Part shown: positions 7,628-13,427 of the stretch, one piece after another | Position numbering within the stretch: position 1 is the stretch's first letter | Layout: each line of letters begins with the position of its first letter | From: Planctomycetota bacterium | GTDB taxonomy: Bacteria; Planctomycetota; UBA1135; GCA-002686595 | Assembly (NCBI GenBank): GCA_029259675.1 | Contig: JAJDES010000503.1 | Coordinates: 1 to 34,496 of the forward strand | DNA length: 34,496 nucleotides | Reading direction: 5' to 3' | Made by a program: the position numbers and the translations under genes | Notes under the pieces: generated by a model | The model's input: only the letters and a program-made list of their open reading frames with translations | The model's database searches: none | What the model was told of the DNA's origin: nothing

Positions 7628-8242
7628 TCACTGCATGCCAATGAAGAGCACTTGCAAGAAGCCGATCAGGACTCCCAACACAGCGCCCCAAATCTCGATC
7701 GCACGCAGTTCGCGCGAAGCGACCTCCAAAACCAATTCCTCAAGCCGTTCGACGGGAAACGCCTCTACCTTTTCGGTAACGATTTTCTTGATGTCGAGGC
7801 CGTCTTCCACAGCTCCTTCGATCTCTTTGAAAATCATCTCCTTCTTGGCCAAGATCCCGCGCACGACCGAAGCCTGCAAGTCTTCAATGCGGTCGTCGGT
7901 CAAGAAGCTGCCTACCAGGGGCATATTCTTGAGCTGTTCCACCTTTTTGCTCAGCCCCTGCTTGACCGCGCCGCCGATCACGCGTTCGAGATCGATGCCG
8001 TCAAGTGCGGCCATGATGTCATCGTGACCGACCAAGTGCTTGCCGACGACATTCCCGATGCTGCGCGAAAGGTCTTTTTGGCGCCGACCAATCAAGCCCT
8101 GAAGCTTGAACCCCATCACATTCACAGGAGCGATGGGTCGAAAGATCATCTTCACCGCAATGCGGTTGGTGATGTACCCGATCAATCCCCCGGTCAGGGG
8201 AACGACAATCCAAGTGCTGGGGCTGAGTTCCATGGAGAGCAC
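7628..8242 (-). CDS. DUF445-family membrane protein
   Basis: 204 aa; N-terminal PLTGGLIGYITNRIAVKMIFRPI, which is characteristic of DUF445/YheB-like proteins, and a C-terminal TM helix IWGAVLGVLIGFLQVLFIG. Confidence 0.85.
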   Translation of the reverse strand: MLSMELSPSTWIVVPLTGGLIGYITNRIAVKMIFRPIAPVNVMGFKLQGLIGRRQKDLSRSIGNVVGKHLVGHDDIMAALDGIDLERVIGGAVKQGLSKKVEQLKNMPLVGSFLTDDRIEDLQASVVRGILAKKEMIFKEIEGAVEDGLDIKKIVTEKVEAFPVERLEELVLEVASRELRAIEIWGAVLGVLIGFLQVLFIGMQ

Positions 8243-8421
8243 AAGATAGCGGCCAGCTCCCTCCGCCCCAACGGCATCCCTGGGCTAACTGGCCGTGGAT
8301 GCACCCTGGCCGTCGAATCCCCGAGGGATCGTCGACAGGCGATGGCTGAACGCGGCATGGGCATCGGTCCCAACTACCACACGCTGCGGCCCAATACGGC
8401 TGCCCTACCTCGGAAGGATTG

Positions 8422-8638
8422 TGAACTGACTTGCTTTAGTGGGTTTCATTGCGTTGCAAGTGGGCACAACCACTTCTGTGCAATCAACTTGCATCTTCGC
8501 CCAGGTGGAGCAGGCCCTCCTGAATAGGCTCTTGTGCTGGGGCCTCCACAAATCGCCATTCTCTGACGCTGGGCTGGGCTTTGGATGCCGCCGCCGCCGA
8601 GGTCTGAACGAAGAAACCCACTAAAGGTAGTCAGTTCA
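8422..8638. mobile_element. MITE-like non-autonomous element with 26-bp TIRs
   Basis: Left TIR 8422..8447 TGAACTGACTTGCTTTAGTGGGTTTC; the complement of the right TIR (8613..8638) is TGAACTGACTACCTTTAGTGGGTTTC (24/26). Flanks GAAGGATTG (8413..8421) and GAAGGGTTG (8639..8647) match at 8/9. No transposase inside. Confidence 0.65.
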
Positions 8639-8733
8639 GAAGGGTTGCCCGAGTCGGCGCCCTCAGCCATGGCCCCGCGGCCGCGGACCTCAGCCGAACC
8701 CACTCGCTCTGCGCTCCCTGGCTCCAGCTTTTA

Positions 8734-8743
8734 GTTGCGCAAC
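8734..8743. promoter_or_regulatory. Perfect palindrome GTTGCGCAAC upstream of the MarR-type gene; candidate operator
   Basis: 10-bp perfect dyad 28 bp before ATG 8771, with further GCAAC/TTGCAAC half-site-like repeats up to 8770. Confidence 0.4.
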
Positions 8744-8770
8744 GCAACCTTTAAGTTTCTGATTGCAACC

Positions 8771-9712
8771 ATGAAACCGGAACCAGCATCCGAAGCGGAG
8801 GGCCTGCGCAGGGCGTCGCGGCAATTAATAAGGGAGCTTGGATTTCTCGTGGATCGCTGGGATGACGGGCAGCGATCCCTTTCGCACTCCCAGTGCCACT
8901 GTCTGCTCGAACTGTCCTTTCGCGAAGAACTTACGGGAGGGGAATTGTCGGAGATCTTGCAACTGGATAAGTCCAGCACAAGTCGCGCAGTCGCAGGGTT
9001 GGTGAGCGACGGACTGCTTGAACCTGCTAGTAGCCGTCAGCTCGGCGACAGTCGGCGCCGGCCCATGCGCTTGACACGCACGGGCAAACGCACTGTCGAT
9101 CGCATTGACACCCGGGCCAATGCCGAAGTGCAAGACGCACTTTCGTTGTTGGACCCCAAGGAACGCGCCTGCGTCTGTTCTGGAATGGAACTCTACGCGC
9201 GCTCACTGACGCGCGCACGACGCTTGCGCGGCATCGAAGTGCGCCCCATCCGATCTAAAGACAATACGGCCATGGGCACAATCATCCGCAACGTCATGAC
9301 CGAATTCGGTGCCGTTGGAGTGGGCTATTCGATCGAAGATTCAGAAGTGGACAACATGTCGAAGGCTTACAGGATGGCCGGACATGCGTTTTATGTGGCA
9401 ACAGAAGACGGCGCTATTCTCGGCGGAGCGGGGATCGGGCCACTGGCCGGCGGGCCGAAGGATGTTTGTGAGTTGCGCAAGATGTACTTGGGAACTGCTG
9501 CGCGTGGCTTGGGACTGGGCCGGCGACTGCTGCAGACCTGCTTAGATCACGCTCGGTCTTTGGGTTACAAAAGCTGCTATCTGGAAACCCTTAAGCACAT
9601 GCTGGGTGCCCGAAAACTCTACGAACGCTTTGGCTTTCGTGCGCTTGATGCCCCAATGGGCAGCACCGGTCACTGCGCGTGTGACAGTTGGATGCTGCTC
9701 GACTTCGAGTAG
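8771..9712 (+). CDS. MarR-family regulator fused to GNAT acetyltransferase
   Basis: N-terminal winged helix (LSHSQCHCLLELSFREELTGGELSEILQLDKSSTSRAVAGLVSDGLLEP...DSRRRPMRLT); C-terminal GNAT core (ELRKMYLGTAARGLGLGRRLLQTCLDHARSLGYKSCYLETLKHMLGARKLYERFGF). ORF also open from TTG 8735; ATG 8771 preferred. Confidence 0.9.
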   Translation: MKPEPASEAEGLRRASRQLIRELGFLVDRWDDGQRSLSHSQCHCLLELSFREELTGGELSEILQLDKSSTSRAVAGLVSDGLLEPASSRQLGDSRRRPMRLTRTGKRTVDRIDTRANAEVQDALSLLDPKERACVCSGMELYARSLTRARRLRGIEVRPIRSKDNTAMGTIIRNVMTEFGAVGVGYSIEDSEVDNMSKAYRMAGHAFYVATEDGAILGGAGIGPLAGGPKDVCELRKMYLGTAARGLGLGRRLLQTCLDHARSLGYKSCYLETLKHMLGARKLYERFGFRALDAPMGSTGHCACDSWMLLDFE

Positions 9713-9788: not shown

Positions 9789-12700
9789 CTACCAAGCCTT
9801 GACTTGGCCAGCGAACAGGTACACCGCGCCCGTCTTGGGACCGCGATCATCGCTCCAAGCTGCTGAGATCAAAAAGTCCGCACGTCCGTCGCCGTTGACG
9901 TCCCCCATTCCAGTCGCATCGAAACCAAAACAAGCACCGGGCTGCGTATGCGTGAAGCTGGACAGTACTCGGCCCGTGCGACCCGAGTACAAATAGGCTT
10001 TCCCGCCGTGCTCAGCCGCTTCGCTATTGATCCAGGCTCCGACGATCAAGTCAGCACGTCCGTCGCCGTCCACATCTCCCGCCAGGGCATTGCCGATGCC
10101 CAACCCTTCACCGGCCCCGCCGCTAAAGATTCGCAACGACTCGCCATTGCGTCCGGAATGAACGTAAACCCGTCCCGAGCCCGGGCCATGAACCTCATTT
10201 TCGAAGTCAACGGCGTACACATCGGGGATGTGGTCGCCGTTCAAATCGCCGGGGAAAGACACAAACATGCGGCCCAAGTTCACGGCGGTGTCGTCAGCCT
10301 CGATGCGAAAGTGGGGCTGGGCCCCTCCCGCGCCCAAGTGGTAAACGTACACGCGACCAGCACGCCTGACGCCCGCATCCATAGCACCGATCGCAAGCAT
10401 GGGCTGGGAGCCTTCGAGCTTCGCACTCACCGCACTTCCGAATGCTTCACCCGCGCCTTCACCTTCAAGTGAAAATAGCAGCTGGCCGGTCGCGCCGGAC
10501 ACAGCATCCACCCGACCGTCGTTCCGGTTGTGGCCCGGTGCGCCGATGATTAGATCGGGAACTTGGTCTCCATCGAGATCGCCGGGGCCCCAGAGACTTC
10601 GACCGAAGCCTTCGTCCGCTTGCCGCCCGCTCAGCCGCAACAGCTCAGATCCATTCGCGCCCGAATAGACGAACACTTGCCCGGCCTGACGATCGCGGCC
10701 TGTCGTGGCGCCTTGCGGTTTGAACAGCTTGTCTGATTTTTGGCCCAGGGACTCCTGTTCTGTGCTTGCCGCTTTCTCGGCACCACTCGGGGCCGGCAAA
10801 GCTCCTTCCGCTTTTTTCATACCCGGGGCACCCACTGCCAAGTCATCTCGCCCATCGCCGTTCAGGTCCCCGACAGCGACGACGCAATAGCCGAAATGAC
10901 TCTCGTCGCTTCCATCCCAGCGGTGCAAGAGTTCCCCCGTCTTGCCCGAGTACACATAAGCGCGTCCCGCACTTCCGACTTTGTGTTCGTGCAATTCTCC
11001 GGTTACGGGACTCGCCAGTGCTGCATTGGGTGCGCCGATCAAGGCGTCGGGCACTCCGTCACCGTCCACATCGCCCACACGACTGATGGACCATCCGAAT
11101 TGCTCGCCTTCCGTTTCTCCGACCCACTCGTGAAGGACAACGACATCTTCCTTGAATTTGGAACTCGCGCTTTCCTCAACGGTTTCGTGAACCTCATCGA
11201 TCTCGACGCTTTCAACTCTCCAGCGATTGCGACCCGACATGGACATCAGCTCGAGCATGCGTGAATCTTCGCGCAGGCTGATTAAGTCCTCATCTTCCAA
11301 TACGAATCCCGGATCAAAGCCGGCGTCGGTCGCCTTGAAAAGCCACTCGAAAGCCAAGTCGACTTCGCCCAGCAATGCGTAGGCACAGCCGGCGTTGTAC
11401 ATGCCCAAGGACGCGACGCTGGAATCCCGGAAAGTGGCGGCCTTCTTGTGGCAAACCAATGCCCGCTCCAGGTCCCCCAGACAATGCAAGGAGTAGCCGT
11501 ACAACATCCATGCACGCGCGTTGTACGGCTGCGCTTTTGTAATCGCCTCGAATGCCTGGGCCGCCCCCGCAAAGTTTCCGCGATCCAAGCGCGCCTGAGC
11601 TTCAGCCTCCGTTGGCAATCGGCCGCTTTCAATGCGCAAATGCATTTCCTGCCGTAGTGCCGACGCGCCCGAAATCAAAAACACGCGGCCGGAGCCTTGC
11701 GGTTGTTCCCCGATCGAATCCACGGTCTTCATTGCCGTAACCAACAAGTCCGGCGCGCCGTCGCGATTGACGTCGCCGACGCCCGTGGCGCGAAAGCCAA
11801 AGGCTTCGCCTTCTGCCGTGGAGGTGAATGAGGCCAGCTGTCGACCATCGAAACCGGAACGCAAAACAATCTTACCTGTGGAATCAACTTCGCCCGCGTG
11901 CAGCCACGTGCCCACCATCAAATCGTCGTGGCCGTCTCCATCCAAGTCGCCGATAGGGCCCGTTCCGATTCCGAATGTCCCGCTTGCCGCGCCCCCCACA
12001 GTTTGCAAAGTGCGCCCGTCCGCGCCGGAAAAGACACTGGCTGCACCACTTTTGGATCCACGCCCGTTCGGCTTTCCAATGGAGCTGAGAATGTCTTCGC
12101 TGCCGTCGTGATCAATGTCTCCCACGATCGCCACGAATGGACCGACGGAATCGACGTCTCTTTCGTTTGCCTCAATGGAAAACTTCAATTGCGGTTCTTT
12201 GCCGCGGTAGACGTAAACAGCACCGTTCTTCAACGCTCCAGCCAAGGGCGCCGCGATCACCAGGGTTTCTTCCGATCCCGCGATCGAAGCACCGAATCGA
12301 TCTCCTGCTGCATCCCCATCGAGGCGAGCCAACTCTTTACCGGTGATGCCCGTTAGCAGGCTCACCCGCCCGCCCGAAGGAACACCTGGAGCACTGACTG
12401 CATAGTCTTTCCAACCGTCGCCGTTCCAATCTCCAAGCGAGGCGACGGATTCGCCAAAGCGGTCGCCGACACTCTCGCCCTTTAGCAGCCCCAACAATTG
12501 GCCGTCAACGCCTGAAAGCAGGTAAACACATCCTGCACCACTGCCTATTTGCGGCGCGCCCACGAGCAAGTCGGCGTGACCGTCTCCATCCATGTCGCCG
12601 CAACCCGCCATGGACCAACCAAAGCAATCACCAAGCTCACCCGTGCGCTCAAAGAGCAAGGATCCCGTGCGACCTGAATAGGCGTAAATCCTGCCCTGTC

Positions 12701-13163
12701 CGGATTCGGAGTGCGAATCGAGTGAAGCAGGCGCTTCGCCAGCAACCGGTTCTGATGGTTGCTTGACTTGTCCGGGTGCTTCCCCGGGTACGCCATCGGG
12801 TACGCCATCGGGTGCGTCAGCGGGTACGCCATCGGGTGCGTCAGCGGTGGTCGGAGCTATTGAACTTGATTGCCCCGCATTCGGAGCAGTTCCGATTGCA
12901 CGCGGCAAGCTCTGATACAGGGGCGCACCAATAACAATGTCCCCCACACCGTCTCCGTCCAGATCACCCGCAGCACAGATCTCATATCCGAATTGATCCC
13001 CGGGACGCTCGCCTTCGAAGCGATAGAGAACATCCACATCGGCCTCGACCCATTGAGCACCGGCAGCACAGGTTCCGAACAACATTGTGCAACTTGCAAC
13101 ATTCAAGGCTCGCAGCGCGATAGGCCGCAAGGAGATCAATCGAGTTGTCCTTGAGTGAGCCAT
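9789..13163 (-). CDS. Giant secreted FG-GAP/integrin-alpha-like beta-propeller protein with central TPR-like segment
   Basis: ORF 9789..13406; ATG at 13163 gives MAHSRTTRLISLRPIALRALNVASCTMLFGTCAAGAQW (signal-like). Repeated FGxxxxxxGDxDGDGxxDxxxGAP units on both sides of a TPR-like block (FAGAAQAFEAITKAQPYNARAWMLYGYSLHCLGDLERALVCHKKA). Confidence 0.92.
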   Translation of the reverse strand: MAHSRTTRLISLRPIALRALNVASCTMLFGTCAAGAQWVEADVDVLYRFEGERPGDQFGYEICAAGDLDGDGVGDIVIGAPLYQSLPRAIGTAPNAGQSSSIAPTTADAPDGVPADAPDGVPDGVPGEAPGQVKQPSEPVAGEAPASLDSHSESGQGRIYAYSGRTGSLLFERTGELGDCFGWSMAGCGDMDGDGHADLLVGAPQIGSGAGCVYLLSGVDGQLLGLLKGESVGDRFGESVASLGDWNGDGWKDYAVSAPGVPSGGRVSLLTGITGKELARLDGDAAGDRFGASIAGSEETLVIAAPLAGALKNGAVYVYRGKEPQLKFSIEANERDVDSVGPFVAIVGDIDHDGSEDILSSIGKPNGRGSKSGAASVFSGADGRTLQTVGGAASGTFGIGTGPIGDLDGDGHDDLMVGTWLHAGEVDSTGKIVLRSGFDGRQLASFTSTAEGEAFGFRATGVGDVNRDGAPDLLVTAMKTVDSIGEQPQGSGRVFLISGASALRQEMHLRIESGRLPTEAEAQARLDRGNFAGAAQAFEAITKAQPYNARAWMLYGYSLHCLGDLERALVCHKKAATFRDSSVASLGMYNAGCAYALLGEVDLAFEWLFKATDAGFDPGFVLEDEDLISLREDSRMLELMSMSGRNRWRVESVEIDEVHETVEESASSKFKEDVVVLHEWVGETEGEQFGWSISRVGDVDGDGVPDALIGAPNAALASPVTGELHEHKVGSAGRAYVYSGKTGELLHRWDGSDESHFGYCVVAVGDLNGDGRDDLAVGAPGMKKAEGALPAPSGAEKAASTEQESLGQKSDKLFKPQGATTGRDRQAGQVFVYSGANGSELLRLSGRQADEGFGRSLWGPGDLDGDQVPDLIIGAPGHNRNDGRVDAVSGATGQLLFSLEGEGAGEAFGSAVSAKLEGSQPMLAIGAMDAGVRRAGRVYVYHLGAGGAQPHFRIEADDTAVNLGRMFVSFPGDLNGDHIPDVYAVDFENEVHGPGSGRVYVHSGRNGESLRIFSGGAGEGLGIGNALAGDVDGDGRADLIVGAWINSEAAEHGGKAYLYSGRTGRVLSSFTHTQPGACFGFDATGMGDVNGDGRADFLISAAWSDDRGPKTGAVYLFAGQVKAW
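12785..12844. repeat. Five 12-bp tandem units (CGGGTACGCCAT / CGGGTGCGTCAG, order A A B A B)
   Basis: Read directly; encodes the (A)DAP/DGVP repeats in the FG-GAP protein. Confidence 0.9.
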
Positions 13164-13427
13164 GGATCGCCCCTCGGGCGAGGGAGAAAAGTGAGCCGAT
13201 TGCGTTCGAGCGCAGCTTCGAACTGTTCGCGTTGCCGAACGCCGCTGCCGAGCCAAAGTACTGTTGCTCAAAGATAACCGCTGGGGGCCGTTCCGGTGCT
13301 CGAGTGCGAGGCTTGTGCTCCAAAGCTTACATGGAGCGGCCATCCTACGCGTATCGAGCCCCAAGGCGGGCGAAGGCGCATTGTCGAGATTGGGCAAGGC
13401 CTGCAATTGCCTAACTGTTGATGCCTG

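Follow-up and report, generated by a model that had tools for sequence, protein, structure and literature searches.

A diverged MITE family in a Planctomycetota genome shares its ends and target motif with a co-resident IS1-like element

The window analyzed here, a 34,496-nucleotide stretch of a Planctomycetota bacterium draft genome (GenBank assembly GCA_029259675.1, contig JAJDES010000503.1), contains a 217-bp MITE at positions 8422-8638 (+ strand), which genome searches and alignment place in a set of 33 near-full copies within that genome. In all likelihood, this element is a non-coding, non-autonomous MITE mobilized through shared ends by the transposase of a co-resident IS1-like IS, with formation of a 9-bp target duplication. 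The observations that carry this interpretation are the ends, the copy number, the 9-bp duplications, the ends and target motif held in common with the IS, and the open transposase frame of the latter. A reading made earlier from the letters of the window (the sequence-only reading) had already proposed a non-autonomous transposable element at this position, and the proposal is borne out both by copies with 9-bp duplications and by an IS with matching ends.

The element is bounded by 26-bp terminal inverted repeats (TIRs) at 8422-8447 (+) and 8613-8638 (-), which are identical at 24/26 positions by inspection and which a repeat search lengthens to 29 nt at 90%. TGAACTGACTnnCTTnnGTGGGTTT is found both in the left TIR and in the end of the IS that resides in the same genome. 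Just outside the TIRs, GAAGGATTG (8413-8421) and GAAGGGTTG (8639-8647) form a direct repeat agreeing at 8/9 bases. The repeat pair, the length of the element and the flanking direct repeat are all exactly as the sequence-only reading described them; its statement that no transposase is encoded likewise holds, coding signal being absent across the 33 copies. Short length and terminal inverted repeats, as expected of a MITE, are therefore both present. Two conserved blocks are located in the interior, one at 8465-8493 (+; consensus CGCAACCGCTTCTGTGCAATCAACTTGCA) and the other at 8509-8520 (+; AGCAGGCCCTCC, from the alignment of copies).

Searching the draft genome to which the window belongs (4.97 Mb in 630 contigs, 65% complete) yielded 41 sequence matches to the element. 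With a profile derived from 23 clean copies, 33 near-full copies dispersed over different contigs were retrieved, along with fragments, many of which lie at contig ends; copies number about 40 in all. Copy lengths are 217 bp (15 copies), 218 bp (12), 216 bp (3), 219 bp, 215 bp and, in one instance, 187 bp, so that 32/33 fall within 215-219 bp. The closest relative of the window copy, on contig C67, is 92% identical to it. Given these 33 near-full copies and 77 genome matches to the end motif in a pattern search, as against 4 for a reversed control pattern, the inverted-repeat element is far above chance. Many further copies with 9-bp duplications were thus found in the source genome, and the pattern that the sequence-only reading had named as telling against mobile DNA, namely a lack of other copies combined with conservation of the same sequence at this locus in relatives, was not observed. 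MITE copies with perfect duplications have a mutual identity of only 64-84%; therefore, several diverged lineages moved recently, with length nearly fixed. At the starts of two contigs (C67, L002 1-300; C311, L021 1-340), a MITE, a target of about 9 bp, a second MITE and the same target follow each other in tandem; either genuine dimers or artefacts of assembly could account for these arrangements.

When the copies were aligned to their ends, the flanking 9 bases agreed at 5.85/9 positions on average, compared with 3.56 for shuffled partners; in 20,000 shuffling trials the match peaked at 4.48, and the observed value was never reached. Flank identity is 65% at length 9 versus 20-33% at lengths 5-8 and 10-13, and the 9-bp target duplication claimed by the sequence-only reading is accordingly the statistically unique length among the copies, whose flanks match at 9 bp only. 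Perfect 9-bp duplications are found in four copies (L006, L015, L021 and L098). The target-site duplication (TSD) is more intact in copies with a higher identity to their closest counterpart (Spearman rho 0.51, p 0.002), as should be the case for ageing insertions. Around the copies there is a palindromic target preference, roughly g-CAAnnnTTG-c with the duplicated bases in capitals, and the target of the window copy, GAAGGRTTG, agrees with CAAnnnTTG at 5/6 specified positions. The context of insertion was examined by joining the flanks and looking for ORFs: insertion points fall in long open frames in 17/26 cases, compared with 87.5% expected from random points (p 0.003). This test is coarse, because spurious ORFs are abundant at 58-59% G+C, and it shows no more than an avoidance of long frames. 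Such avoidance agrees with the usual intergenic bias.

The partner IS was found by a pattern search of the genome with the end motif, which occurs with a different interior at four places (contigs C4, C155, C156 and C300). The IS on C156 is 1,229 bp long, reads TGAACTGACTAGCTTCCGTGGG...CCCACCGAAGTTGGACAGTTTG and has a perfect 9-bp duplication, CAAGTAGTG, on both sides, which falls in the same target motif as the MITEs. The C4 and C156 copies have 919 bp in common at 92%, counted from the first end base; besides the C156 copy, IS copies interrupted by contig ends are present on C4, C41 and C65, and their flanks (CAATGGATG, CAAGAGTTG and TAATCATTG) match the MITE target motif. MITE and IS have the ends TGAACTGACTnnCTTnnGTGGG in common. 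An autonomous IS with ends beginning TGAACTGACT and a 9-bp duplication, as anticipated by the sequence-only reading, is thus present in the genome, and the MITE shares with this element, represented by C156 and C4, both ends and target motif. Their similarity is confined to the terminal 26-30 bp, and end positions 11-17 vary between subfamilies. The idea that the MITE arose from the C156 IS, or from the other IS copies found, simply by internal deletion was rejected because only these termini match. On C155 (L036 1501-1625) and C300 (L044 1067-1173), solo left IS ends of 107-125 bp with different break points are seen, representing either truncated copies or one-ended events. Beyond the right TSD of the C156 IS (L037), CAAGTAGTG is followed by TGAACTGACTAGC, which repeats the first 13 IS bases and looks like a tandem copy cut short.

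The transposase frame of the C156 IS is intact and open over 375 codons, and a 354-aa product was used in the analysis. A Pfam search assigned no family to this product, and the NCBIfam IS1 model NF033558 matches it at E 3.7e-7 with 30 bits, below the curated cut-off of 100; 17/19 homologues from the bacterial family match the same model at E<=0.01 (best 3.3e-11). Profile comparison with hhalign pairs the N-terminal zinc-finger/HTH region with E. coli InsA (95%, E 3.4e-8), and the catalytic region gives a weak match to InsB (5% probability). Structure comparison with the predicted fold (pLDDT 83) brings up DDE integrases and the transposase of ISCth4, at low TM-scores. IS1 duplicates 8-9 bp at its target and encodes the domain order zinc finger, HTH, DDE (PMC12428005). 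The partner IS resembles it in a zinc-finger and HTH N-terminus, ahead of what may be an RNase H-like domain, in imperfect ends of roughly 25-30 bp and in the size of its duplication, that of CAAGTAGTG at both sides falling within the 8-9 bp of IS1. It differs in having 1,229 bp and a single continuous frame, whereas IS1 has 768 bp and the insA/insB frameshift organization, in a transposase score under the curated IS1 cut-off and in ends unlike those of IS1. Because of the sub-cut-off score, the weak InsB match and the single frame, the partner is named IS1-like rather than filed in IS1; judged by these comparisons, its transposase is distantly related to IS1. In an alignment of the transposase homologues (A1, numbered as in the L067 protein), every sequence carries D125 and D214, and an invariant Asn, N252, stands by eye at the position of the IS1 catalytic Glu, with an invariant Asp, D260, eight residues further on. 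The third catalytic residue of the partner transposase may hence differ from that of IS1.

Very probably, the MITE is moved by the enzyme of the IS1-like element. In the proposed mechanism, the transposase would recognize the ends common to IS and MITE, free or copy the MITE and join it to two target strands 9 bp apart, preferably at CAAnnnTTG, after which gap repair would leave the 9-bp duplication; the window copy would have been inserted in this manner into the intergenic gap of the divergent DUF445/MarR-GNAT pair. Both this chemistry and the movement itself would be attributable to the C156 transposase or a close relative. Since only the ends are held in common and positions 11-17 vary, the driver could instead be a related IS absent from the 65%-complete assembly. 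A transposase other than that of the C156 IS, either a relative since lost or one that the assembly does not contain, is also favored by the recent activity of several diverged MITE lineages whose end variants differ. Nevertheless, such a driver is considered unlikely, given that the C156 IS agrees with the MITE in ends, duplication length and target motif, and that the end-pattern search of the 65%-complete genome revealed no additional long element that carries these ends.

Two explanations that dispense with transposition were weighed against the behavior of the interior across copies. The sequence-only reading had reported nested dyads inside the element, which are indeed located at the positions given; they are not conserved across copies, with full pairing in 2/33 copies for TGCAAGT/ACTTGCA, 15/33 for GCACA/TGTGC and 3/33 for GTGGAG/CTCCAC, and they are mostly private to the window copy or its subfamily. 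A structured or regulatory RNA conserved at the locus would account for the strong folding of the single window copy (-100.9 kcal/mol, z -4.05), but this fold consists mostly of the TIRs. No consensus helices appear inside the alignment of 33 copies, the best dyad, GCACA/TGTGC, shows no covariation across them, Rfam gives no match, and the copies reside at unrelated loci with target duplications, so that an RNA origin was rejected as highly improbable. The remains of a protein-coding segment, or a repeat that codes for protein, would fit the very few indels for the divergence observed (about 90 substitutions versus 1.25 gaps in the most diverged copy pairs); however, variation among the 33 copies lacks three-base periodicity, and stop codons occur in every frame when averaged over copies. 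The coding remnant was rejected on the former ground and is scarcely credible.

For the MITE interpretation, an unexpected feature is the 29-bp block at 8465-8493, whose column entropies in the alignment of copies are as low as those of the TIRs. Its core, GTGCAATCAACTTGCATC, occurs 28 times in the source genome with up to two mismatches, always on catalogued MITE copies, and in the 80 other genomes of the bacterial family only two isolated two-mismatch matches were obtained. As a guess, the block is a cis-acting transposition site. It contains AATCAA, a sequence found in IHF sites, but lacks the rest of the IHF consensus. A broader and rather doubtful proposal, put forward tentatively, is that the block acts in cis through the transposase or a DNA-bending host protein and is selected as tightly as the ends, within a MITE lineage that would persist and diversify as a replicator of its own, in keeping with the low mutual identity and nearly constant length of the recently inserted copies; each genus would hold its own lineage, with all depending on a common group of IS1-like transposases.

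Within the bacterial family, transposase homologues were detected in 32/81 genomes representing 25/42 genera, and a related end, AACTGACTGGNTTCCGTGT, was found in 13/81 genomes, including G089 (93 matches), G032 (68) and G091 (55). These ends recur as pairs about 145-220 bp apart in G089, G091, G032 and G020, and single or few end pairs are present in G028, G001 and G019; over all seven genomes the spacing is 145-240 bp. Among 20 sampled short elements from six genera (loci L158-L177), those within one genome are often alike, while elements from different genera have essentially nothing but their terminal 20-30 bp in common; the profile of the window MITE accordingly matches mainly the ends of other genera's short elements. 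In G089, the flanks of the short elements agree at 6-8/9 bases in 3/8 cases. As far as these sampled elements indicate, several genera seem to hold their own MITE set upon a common transposase group. The window MITE itself was not found in 60 related genomes, save for one 24-base match at chance level. Its presence in named bacteria was rejected, since the sole match among genome contigs (Billgrantia) is limited to the core, lacks TIRs and is attributable to chance. Viral or plasmid spread was likewise rejected: IMG/VR gave no exact match to the core, and PLSDB gave no match to either MITE or transposase.

The element is mobile DNA of a well-known kind. MITEAba12 of Acinetobacter, which is mobilized by ISAba12, has a near-fixed length of 111-114 bp, 9-bp duplications and recently active copies (PMC6382973). 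Like the window MITE, it is short and gene-less, with ends common to a co-resident IS; near-fixed length is thus not unique to the present family. The two differ in that MITEAba12 has 113 bp, other ends, another IS and host, and no reported target motif, whereas copies of the window MITE are far more diverged and show the CAAnnnTTG preference. QMITE2 of Coxiella and other reviewed MITEs have 23-29-bp TIRs, 7-9-bp direct repeats, a 113-145-bp core and a strong single-strand fold (PMC10969869), all features with counterparts in the window MITE, but they have other ends, cores and hosts, and the partner of the window MITE is IS1-like. In the open literature, with subscription papers and ISfinder outside the search, neither a paper on a MITE with an IS1-like partner nor an earlier description of the element in its lineage was found, and the MITE lineage is apparently undescribed. 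A transposase group, a duplication length and a target motif can now be assigned to this family. Moreover, a recurrent pattern emerges in which the short elements of other genera keep the ends, with unrelated interiors, beside the same IS1-like transposase group, providing a natural series of replicates across genera for asking which features other than its ends a MITE requires for its persistence.

In the window, the MITE separates a DUF445 gene (7628-8242, -; PF04286, E 9.9e-28) from a divergent MarR-GNAT fusion gene (8735-9712, +; PF00583, PF12802). In G020, which belongs to another genus, homologues of the two (55% and 51% identical, respectively, the latter with one in-frame stop reported by the search) are also divergent neighbors, and their gap is about 90 bp without the element versus about 490 bp here, a gene-order comparison that is not base-exact. 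An element-free counterpart of the locus is thereby available, as the sequence-only reading had envisaged. Its further suggestion that the element could affect the expression of either neighbor is unsupported, although possible, as no promoter-like match was detected within the element or close to it. A palindrome, GTTGCGCAACGCAAC (window 8730-8775), lies downstream of the MITE, immediately before the MarR-GNAT gene, and is apparently intact; a different palindrome, CAGCCAATTTAATTGGTTGC, occupies the corresponding place in G020 (L181 1490-1520); by sequence, both are possible candidate MarR operators. Adjoining the MarR-GNAT gene on its other side, the minus strand at 9789-13406 encodes a protein of 1,205 aa that contains FG-GAP repeats and a TPR segment.
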